A DNA stretch of 64,000 bases, taken from positions 78,490 to 142,489 of IMG/VR virus record IMGVR_UViG_3300012985_000006; one strand, given 5' to 3'. The DNA is from a virus. Below, in pieces: positions 50,386-52,767 of this stretch; within the stretch, counting starts at the first letter, position 1, and each line of letters starts with the position of its first letter. Both the position numbers and the translations under genes were made by a program. The notes beneath the pieces are model-generated. The model saw only the letters and a list, made by a program, of their open reading frames with translations, had not been told where the DNA came from and did not search any database.

Positions 50386-51291
50386 ATGCGGATTCTTATC
50401 GTAGAAGACAGTGCCACCGACCGCCAATTGCTCCGTTACTTGCTTGAGGACAAATTTATGTCCGAGGCAAAGTTTCGGGAGGCTAGCAATCTTGCCACAG
50501 CCGTCAAGTACCTGGATGCGGGCAATATCGACTGCGTTCTGTTGGACCTTCAATTACCTGATTCCGCTGGGAAAGAAACTTTTGAGAAGCTGATTAGTCG
50601 CTTCCCCGATGTGCCGATCATCGTGATGACCAACAACAAGGACCGTGACCTGGCGGTCAACATGATCAAGCTGGGGGCAGCCGACTACATCCTCAAGTCC
50701 TACACCGACGAGGAGGAGCTTTTTCGTCGAATCGTGTTCGCAATCGAGAAACATCGGAGGACCGTTCGCATGCCGATCGACAATGCCTCCAGTATCCACA
50801 AGCTGGAACGAGCTCAAGCCAACCTCGCCTCGGCCCACAAGAGTGGCGAACATGGGGCGATCCGCTCGACAACGATGGAGACCACCACCGCCATTGCGGA
50901 CCTGTCCAAGAGTCTGTTCACCGAGCTACAAGCGATCTCTGGCAAGCTGACCCAGCAGGACACACGGGTCGGCCACATGGAGGATATTGTTCGCACCTTG
51001 GAACAGGAGCTGCTGAAAGGGCACCCTACCCGTGCCTCAATGCGTTCTCAGGTGGATCTGATCGATCACCGGCTCACCCAAAACGAGCAAGGACTGAAGT
51101 CGGTCAGAGACGGGTTGAAACACGATGACGAGACTCAACGAATGAGCGCGGTGTCGTTGCATCAAACCCGCATGACCAACAAGACCAAGCTATTGCTGGG
51201 AGTGTTGACCCTAATTGGAGCTATCGCCACAGCAGTGGCTTCCTACGAGGCCTCCAATGGAGGGAAGGCCGACACAGGGCATCACCCGTGA
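50386..51291 (+). CDS. Response regulator with coiled coil and C-terminal membrane helix
   Basis: A 301-residue protein. The N-terminal receiver domain (1-120) has Glu7-Asp8, phosphoacceptor Asp54 (CVLLDLQLPDS), a Thr in IIVMTNN and Lys in YILKSY. A long helical region follows with heptads (SKSLFTELQAISGKLTQQDT...LEQELL). Near the end one hydrophobic segment (LLLGVLTLIGAIATAVASY) is a membrane anchor. This is an unusual output for a receiver: it seems to tether signalling to the membrane. First gene of a three-gene plus-strand cassette; the ATG is preceded by CACCTAGATTGCC. Confidence 0.9.
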   Translation: MRILIVEDSATDRQLLRYLLEDKFMSEAKFREASNLATAVKYLDAGNIDCVLLDLQLPDSAGKETFEKLISRFPDVPIIVMTNNKDRDLAVNMIKLGAADYILKSYTDEEELFRRIVFAIEKHRRTVRMPIDNASSIHKLERAQANLASAHKSGEHGAIRSTTMETTTAIADLSKSLFTELQAISGKLTQQDTRVGHMEDIVRTLEQELLKGHPTRASMRSQVDLIDHRLTQNEQGLKSVRDGLKHDDETQRMSAVSLHQTRMTNKTKLLLGVLTLIGAIATAVASYEASNGGKADTGHHP

Positions 51292-52355
51292 ATGCGGTGG
51301 ACCATTTGAAAGCTGCCTTCGACGATTCTTGTGTTCCACAGATCGTGATAGGTTTAGACGGGGGGATCCTGACCGCTAATGAACCAGCGTGGGAATTACT
51401 GGGAGAAACCAAAGAAGGGTTGCTTCAGAAGCGGCACCACGAATTGATATCAGGGGATCCTCTTCCCTTGGAGGAATTGTTACAGAAGTTCGACAGCGAC
51501 AACTATTTGCAGAACTGGCAACACGAATTTCAATATTTGCGTAAAGACAACCCAATGGTTTGGGTTCGTGTCAGTATATCTGCAATCCGTCAGAACGGAA
51601 AGGCGGCTGCTCTATTGGCCCAACTACAAGATATAACGGATCAAAAACAGATTGAAGTAGACCTGCATCGAAATAGCGACGACCTGGATCAGTTCGCCTA
51701 TATCGCAAGTCATGACTTGAGGGAACCTTTGACCGTCATGGCAGGTTACGCCACCCTTCTGAAGAAGCGTTGCTATGAGTCTTTGGATGAGAAGGGTAAA
51801 CATTTCCTTGAAGAAGTGATTGACAGTACGGTGCGAATGGAACGCAAGATCGACGACCTGTTGGCTTTCTCAAGGGCTGGCCGAACGACTCCAAAAGCCG
51901 TCTTCCAGTTGGAAACAGCGATCGAGGAAGCAAGGCGCTCAGTGGGCCGAAGTATTGAGGAGTCGGGGGCCGTCTTCATCATCCCAGAGGGGTTACCGTT
52001 CGTAAGCGGTGACCGCAGCATGATCGCTCAGGTGTTTCAGAACCTGTTCTCCAATTCAATCAAGTACAGGAATCCGGATAGCCCCCCAATCATCACAGTA
52101 GCAGTCACGCCTCATGACGACATTTTCCTCCGAGTGTCGGTGTCCGACAACGGTTTGGGGTTTGATATGGAACACAAAGATCGTATCTTCGGAGTGTTCC
52201 AGAGGCTCTACACGGAAGAGCAGTACCCAGGAACCGGTATCGGGCTAGCGATCGTCAAACGAATTGTAGAGCGGCACCGAGGCGCCATCTGGACCACCTC
52301 TGAGCCCAATCATGGAGCCACGTTCTTCTTTACCATACCTAGGGCCGATGCCTGA
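51288..52355 (+). CDS. Histidine kinase (PAS, HisKA, HATPase)
   Basis: A 355-residue kinase that autophosphorylates on His142 (YIASHDLREPLTVMAGY) and passes phosphate to a receiver. An N-terminal PAS-like sensor domain (NEPAWELLGE, LQDITDQKQIEVDLHRN) spans about 10-120. The ATPase domain has an N box (QVFQNLFSNSIKYR), G1 (VSDNGLGFD) and G2 (PGTGIGLAIVKR). There are no membrane helices. Starts with GTG, overlapping the receiver gene by 4 nt. This kinase type is common in bacteria; in a phage it is exceptional. Confidence 0.93.
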   Translation: MNAVDHLKAAFDDSCVPQIVIGLDGGILTANEPAWELLGETKEGLLQKRHHELISGDPLPLEELLQKFDSDNYLQNWQHEFQYLRKDNPMVWVRVSISAIRQNGKAAALLAQLQDITDQKQIEVDLHRNSDDLDQFAYIASHDLREPLTVMAGYATLLKKRCYESLDEKGKHFLEEVIDSTVRMERKIDDLLAFSRAGRTTPKAVFQLETAIEEARRSVGRSIEESGAVFIIPEGLPFVSGDRSMIAQVFQNLFSNSIKYRNPDSPPIITVAVTPHDDIFLRVSVSDNGLGFDMEHKDRIFGVFQRLYTEEQYPGTGIGLAIVKRIVERHRGAIWTTSEPNHGATFFFTIPRADA

Positions 52356-52767
52356 ATTTCATATTTTGATCATAGAAGATAGTCCTCAGGATATCGAACT
52401 TCTGATGGAAGCGGTCGAAATCGTATCGGACCGTATCGTGGTCGAATCCGCTTCTAGTGGAGATGCGGGGCTACAGCTGCTGTATCAGGCTGAGAATCAA
52501 CCCAGTCTGATCCTGTTGGACCTGAACCTCCCCAAGAAGAGTGGTTTGGAGGTGCTGAGAGAGATCAAACGGGACCCTACCCTGAAGACCATCCCCGTCA
52601 TCATCCTCACCAACTCGATGTCCCAAGACGATGTGGTGTCGGCCTATGCCAGCCACTGCAACGCCTACGTGCGCAAAGGATTGGGGATTGACTTCCTAAC
52701 CCAACTGATAACCAGCTTGGAACAATTCTGGTTCCAACTAGCATCCCTCCCCAAGTTGGCCGACTGA
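52348..52767 (+). CDS. Stand-alone response regulator (Rcp1-like)
   Basis: A 139-residue receiver-only protein; start ATG at 52348, 8 nt inside the 3' end of the kinase gene. It has Glu10-Asp11, phosphoacceptor Asp58 (LILLDLNLPKKSG), Thr (IILTNSMS) and Lys (YVRKGLGI). No output domain. Similar to Rcp1/CheY-type single-domain regulators paired with phytochrome-like kinases. It would accept phosphate from the neighbouring kinase. Cassette order receiver-kinase-receiver suggests a phosphorelay. Confidence 0.92.
   Translation: MPEFHILIIEDSPQDIELLMEAVEIVSDRIVVESASSGDAGLQLLYQAENQPSLILLDLNLPKKSGLEVLREIKRDPTLKTIPVIILTNSMSQDDVVSAYASHCNAYVRKGLGIDFLTQLITSLEQFWFQLASLPKLAD

Follow-up and report, generated by a model that had tools for sequence, protein, structure and literature searches.

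Phages are usually thought to exploit the two-component systems of their hosts rather than to carry their own. The viral signaling kinases described so far are single genes: histidine kinases of pelagiphages adjoin curli genes (PMC9599517), and phoR is carried by soil viruses (PMC10987575). The available portions of these two reports describe no dedicated receiver pair with a membrane output, and the available portion of a survey of jumbo phages gives only a divergent receiver outside kinase systems (PMC7824862). Receivers and kinases of phages already form known families (phrog_731 and phrog_857).

Systems in which one kinase is accompanied by two receivers are found in cells. FilI of Methanosaeta harundinacea phosphorylates both the effector receiver FilR1 and the stand-alone receiver FilR2 (PMC3991700). 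Operons that encode a kinase, an Rcp-type receiver and a further receiver protein occur in Cyanobacteria, Melainabacteria, Pseudomonadota, Bacteroidota and archaea. Rcp1 and RcpA themselves are response regulators of cyanobacterial phytochromes. Among phages, Microcoleus phage My-WqHQDG (OR578706.1) has an operon, annotated mostly as hypothetical proteins, that encodes a kinase, an Rcp receiver, an LPDS receiver and a separate coiled-coil-like protein of 179 amino acids with one hydrophobic helix.

Our analysis concerned 64,000 nucleotides (the window) at positions 78,490 to 142,489 of IMG/VR virus record IMGVR_UViG_3300012985_000006, which is 142,489 bases long. Positions 50386-52767 of the window hold a cassette of three genes, in the order RR1-kinase-RR2, that apparently constitutes a complete and functional two-component system within a phage. 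Like the Fil system, it has one kinase for two receivers, a presumed effector and a stand-alone protein. However, FilI is membrane-bound and has a CHASE4 domain, and FilR1 has an ArsR-related DNA-binding domain (PMC3991700), whereas the phage kinase is soluble and RR1 is predicted to be anchored in the membrane.

The cassette shares with the cellular operons a kinase of the SHDLREP class, an Rcp-type middle receiver and an LPDS-type second receiver. In the phage, however, RR1 comes first, and a coiled-coil-like tail with a membrane helix replaces the kinase, GGDEF or other output module of the cellular proteins; the phage kinase is 35-37% identical over its full length to those of the cellular operons. 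RR2 resembles Rcp1 and RcpA throughout, but their partner is a phytochrome, whereas the partner of RR2 is a PAS kinase with neither GAF nor PHY domain. In the Microcoleus phage, receiver and membrane part are separate genes and the kinase lies elsewhere in the tree; we regard that operon as having combined the same kinds of part independently.

Structure of the cassette

The following features define the cassette.

50386..51291, plus strand: RR1, ATG start; LPDS-type receiver (amino acids 1-115), helical or coiled-coil-like linker and predicted C-terminal membrane helix (amino acids 269-287)
50545..50547, plus strand: codon for Asp54, the phospho-acceptor of RR1, invariant in nine phage RR1 proteins
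51190..51246, plus strand: hydrophobic helix of RR1, LLLGVLTLIGAIATAVASY, located by hydropathy
51288..52355, plus strand: soluble histidine kinase, GTG start; PAS (amino acids 23-118), HisKA (133-198) and HATPase_c (241-353)
51711..51713, plus strand: codon for His142 (in SHDLREP), the predicted phosphorylated histidine, from the six-cassette alignment
52348..52767, plus strand: RR2, ATG start; single-domain Rcp1/RcpA-type receiver of 139 amino acids
52519..52521, plus strand: codon for Asp58, the phospho-acceptor of RR2, from the six-cassette alignment

The first-pass annotation of this DNA had proposed three coupled plus-strand genes here, and the open reading frames, translational overlaps and Pfam domains confirm them. 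The GTG start of the kinase overlaps the RR1 stop codon as GTGA, and the ATG of RR2 overlaps the kinase stop codon as ATGCCTGA. Homologues give no support to a longer RR2 frame that opens at 52312. No sigma-70 promoter stood out upstream of RR1 on the plus strand.

Pfam recognizes Response_reg in RR1 (1.8e-22) and RR2 (2.4e-19), and PAS_9 (4.7e-13), HisKA (4.8e-15) and HATPase_c (1.9e-25) in the kinase. The parts expected of a two-component system are present: the phospho-accepting histidine of HisKA, the N, G1 and G2 boxes of HATPase_c, and the acidic pair, phospho-accepting aspartate, threonine and lysine of the receivers. The key residues that had been reported as intact (Asp54, His142 and Asp58) are invariant in six homologous cassettes, as are the acidic pocket, threonine and lysine of both receivers and the three boxes of the kinase. 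Because of the Pfam E-values, the conservation in many phages and the low dN/dS relative to the closest relative, a chance origin is excluded.

RR1 has a single hydrophobic helix near its C terminus (residues 269-287, mean hydropathy 2.07), as expected of a tail anchor. All six RR1 proteins of the terminase clade that includes the window have the helix at the same position, which supports the earlier prediction of a membrane-anchored receiver. We infer that RR1 is tail-anchored in the inner membrane; the basic NKTK (NKTK/NRTK) that precedes the helix predicts a cytoplasmic receiver side. In searches of the tail against Pfam and PHROG, no functionally characterized family matched significantly, although the tail of one relative weakly matches phrog_2990 (2.8e-4, unknown function). 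By Pfam, the C terminus of RR1 lacks the kinase, GGDEF or other enzymatic module present in cellular trios. A holin or XhlA-like reading of the tail has neither Pfam nor PHROG support. Comparison of the tail with the membrane protein of the Microcoleus phage was not significant (profile probability 1.3%), and shuffling gave mixed results, with low values for only two of nine tails; we treat the resemblance as no more than a lead. A 372-kb phage also encodes a single-domain RR1 paralogue without a membrane tail (L148:1495-1965), a few kilobases 3' of its cassette.

Neither the kinase of the window nor RR2 contains a hydrophobic helix. The earlier suggestion that the system might sense light is not borne out: Pfam finds only PAS, HisKA and HATPase_c in the kinase and none of the bilin-binding GAF/PHY domains of phytochromes, and reading the PAS region by eye revealed no NCRF-like motif with the photoactive cysteine of LOV domains. 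On these grounds we rejected a photoreceptor. Moreover, the PAS/sensor region is poorly conserved among the phages, and one of them (L009) has a different N-terminal region, so that no common cue can be named.

The best solved relatives of RR2 are RcpA (1k68, 1.2e-28) and Rcp1 (1i3c, 5.1e-28), with similarity that spans the full length and includes the C-terminal FW...LP segment. This full-length similarity exceeds that to other receivers, and we assign RR2 to the Rcp1/RcpA family. The residue that follows the conserved Lys is Gly in RR2 of the window but Pro in the phage relatives.

A genuine phage carries the cassette

The 142-kb contig genuinely comes from a tailed phage: it has terminase and portal genes as well as tRNAs and a tmRNA. 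It also encodes a head maturation protease-like protein, ribonucleotide reductase, NAD-dependent DNA ligase, GroEL and RtcB. Four features of the window provide its context.

2174..4177, minus strand: large terminase, used as lineage marker
47980..48444, minus strand: tmRNA (Rfam) of the array adjoining the cassette, a context conserved in relatives
50220..50306, minus strand: tRNA-Leu(taa), immediate upstream neighbor of the cassette on the other strand
53756..53829, minus strand: tRNA-Gly(ccc), downstream flank of the array

Because the terminase is 65-85% identical to those of contigs of 155, 182, 372, 437 and 452 kb, the record probably represents part of the genome of a huge phage.

Related contigs from other metagenomes carry the three genes in an identical order: L003 (155 kb), L011 (452 kb), L012 (182 kb), L009 (372 kb) and L005/L004 (437 and 108 kb). 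As in the window, the cassettes of L003, L005, L009 and L011 lie inside a tRNA/tmRNA array whose genes are on the other strand, with a tmRNA nearby; in L012, tRNAs lie a few kilobases away. These independent contigs exclude misassembly, which the first-pass annotation had named as a possible artifact.

A terminase search provided 23 records, the window included, for a tree. The six independent carriers form one supported clade (96/91), plus four short inconclusive fragments, whereas seven large sister records (235-529 kb) on the other side of the terminase branch have no such kinase. Other members of the lineage do possess the cassette. For the six carriers, kinase and terminase have identical branching (unrooted). 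Their kinases cluster in a single clade (100/99) that has a long stem and includes no cellular sequence. Because of this isolation, the phylogeny, which had been proposed as a way to find the donor, names no donor group; the closest cellular kinase is ~37% identical over its full length.

Purifying selection acts on the cassette. Relative to L003, RR1 has a dN/dS of 0.06 and RR2 one of 0.10, at nearly saturated synonymous sites; dS of the kinase is saturated. The receiver of RR1 is the most conserved (dN/dS 0.017). Across the more distant phages, RR2 (41-46% identity) has diverged more than the other two proteins.

The GC content of the cassette (52.4%) matches that of the window (52.5%), and its codon scores fall within the range of phage genes. 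The strand and codon setting had been taken as a sign of acquisition from a bacterium. That argument is not supported, since composition and codons are phage-like and the inverted orientation is inherited in the relatives; old cellular descent, the other part of the claim, is likely. Composition, synteny and trees contradict recent horizontal transfer. A single, ancient gain followed by vertical descent is the simplest account, with a cellular kinase-Rcp-receiver operon as the likely ultimate ancestor.

Cellular kinases were scanned by using one genome per species. The closest, from Melainabacteria, Cyanobacteria, Desulfobacterota, Pseudomonadota, Bacteroidota and archaea, are at most 37% identical over the full length (45% within the catalytic half). 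We compared 80 cellular loci, which were picked by kinase similarity and so provide no census. In 51 of them, the gene after the kinase encodes an Rcp-type receiver, and the next one encodes a protein in which a receiver is fused to an output module. This third protein is fused to another kinase domain in 35 of the 51.

Related trios in other viruses

Profile searches with RR2 and RR1 produced further viral contigs. For some of the shorter ones, the viral class is the IMG/VR classification alone, and all the phage relatives, the Microcoleus phage excepted, are metagenomic contigs without completeness values. In L158, L159 and L165, the cassette has the order RR1-kinase-RR2, and hydropathy shows a hydrophobic helix at the C terminus of RR1 (weaker in L158, 1.71). 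L159 has the same terminase family, and its kinase has an extra N-terminal hydrophobic helix; L165 has no match to that family. In a wider tree, these three kinases and the six of the terminase clade group together (91/92), although support for the widest phage grouping is moderate and several of the sequences are long-branched.

Gene order is the same in L184-L186, and the hydrophobic segment at the C terminus is weaker; in the L182/L184 group, its hydropathy is 1.06-1.22. In L182, kinase and RR2 are divergent from RR1. A second type of phage trio has the order kinase-RR2-RR1 (L161, L162 and L166, and by eye also L183, L187 and L192), and its RR1 ends in a conserved soluble region of ~130 amino acids with no Pfam match.

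Many of the records OR844xxx-OR850xxx of a phage collection, named as Listeria, Staphylococcus or Enterococcus phages, contain diverse bacterial kinases. Because these records look like contaminated assemblies, the matches should not be counted as phage genes.

The first-pass annotation had stated that phages almost never carry full two-component systems. The presence of a complete one in a phage stands, but the rarity was overstated, given that phrog_731 and phrog_857 show such genes to be uncommon, not absent. Within the open-access literature (subscription papers were outside its scope), our search found no description of a phage-encoded complete two-component system. The parts and chemistry of the cassette are of a known kind; a complete system owned by a phage and retained in a lineage of huge phages, with a putative membrane-anchored receiver as its output, was not found in that literature.

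Possible biologic roles

The cassette is probably a self-contained, vertically inherited signaling module of the phage, in which a PAS kinase would control a membrane effect through RR1 and also act on the diffusible RR2. The soluble kinase would sense an intracellular cue through its PAS domain, although the cue is a guess, and would autophosphorylate on His142. The phosphoryl group would then presumably pass to the two dedicated receivers, an arrangement for which FilI, FilR1 and FilR2 offer a precedent, in that one kinase serves an effector and a stand-alone receiver (PMC3991700). RR1 would reside in the inner membrane and expose its receiver to the cytoplasm. Phosphorylation of RR1 may alter how its coiled-coil-like stalk assembles and thereby bring about a membrane event, for which lysis timing, envelope change or exclusion are guesses. 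RR2 could be a phosphate sink, a relay or a second output. The elaborated tail of RR1 and the very strong constraint on its receiver suggest that RR1 is the effector.

A bolder proposal, which we offer tentatively, is that large phages have a class of two-component system of their own, in which a receiver tail-anchored in the membrane is the phospho-switch for lysis timing or superinfection exclusion, timed by sensing of the host state. If so, a virus decides when to act by sensing the condition of its host. Conservation of an intact system in a lineage of huge phages implies that sensing during infection may be useful enough to be selected over long periods. We found no description of a membrane-anchored receiver as a type of output, and several lineages contain related phage trios. 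The class is open to ordinary phosphotransfer and localization assays.

The cassette might instead interfere with host signaling, as had also been suggested. Its kinase or receivers would then act on the two-component systems of the host as decoys, phosphate sinks or phosphatases, for which RR1 would provide a membrane scaffold. Cross-talk is conceivable, in that Rcp-type receivers and this class of kinase are common in many bacterial phyla; RR2, small and soluble, is well suited to draining phosphate, and the divergent arrangement in L182 indicates that the parts need not always be cotranscribed. However, a decoy would not require that the kinase and both receivers be kept together with intact catalytic residues over deep divergence, and no particular host system is closely related. 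We therefore consider interference unlikely.

Another reading is that the genes form an auxiliary operon through which the phage modulates the behavior of its host, for example its motility, pili or surface state, with RR2 as the true output and RR1 serving only to localize the kinase. Single-domain receivers of the Rcp1/CheY-like class, to which RR2 belongs, often work through protein binding. This role for RR2 seems quite improbable, however, because RR1 is first in the operon, has the elaborated tail and contains the most conserved receiver, whereas RR2 varies most among the more distant phages.

Finally, although kinase, RR1 and RR2 are all ultimately of cellular type, a relic or recently captured bacterial operon with no phage role, or a chimeric assembly, is exceedingly improbable in view of at least nine independent contigs, low dN/dS, conserved order and position, phage-like composition and congruent trees.

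A search with the anti-phage defense models of PADLOC returned only weak matches to receiver domains and thus nothing convincing to identify the cassette as a defense system. In preference to these alternatives, we retain the phage-owned module with RR1 as its probable effector.

Genes near the cassette and in its relatives

Directly 3' of the cassette is a cupin/cysteine dioxygenase-like gene (52794-53270, plus strand), which among the relatives is found only in L003 and is probably outside the signaling system. The tmRNA at 47980-48444 was detected by its Rfam match but was missed by ARAGORN in the window; the tmRNAs of the relatives occupy the same neighborhood, and their tag peptides differ. 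Among the relatives, the terminase frames of L101/L113, L105/L124 and L111/L132 contain a large intein-like insertion near residue 136, beside the Walker A motif; the terminase of the window has no such insertion. In L009, a large cysteine-repeat lipoprotein-like protein (L009:7599-10229) adjoins the cassette. Proteins of this style are seen in Myxococcota, which may be a hint to the host of this 372-kb phage.
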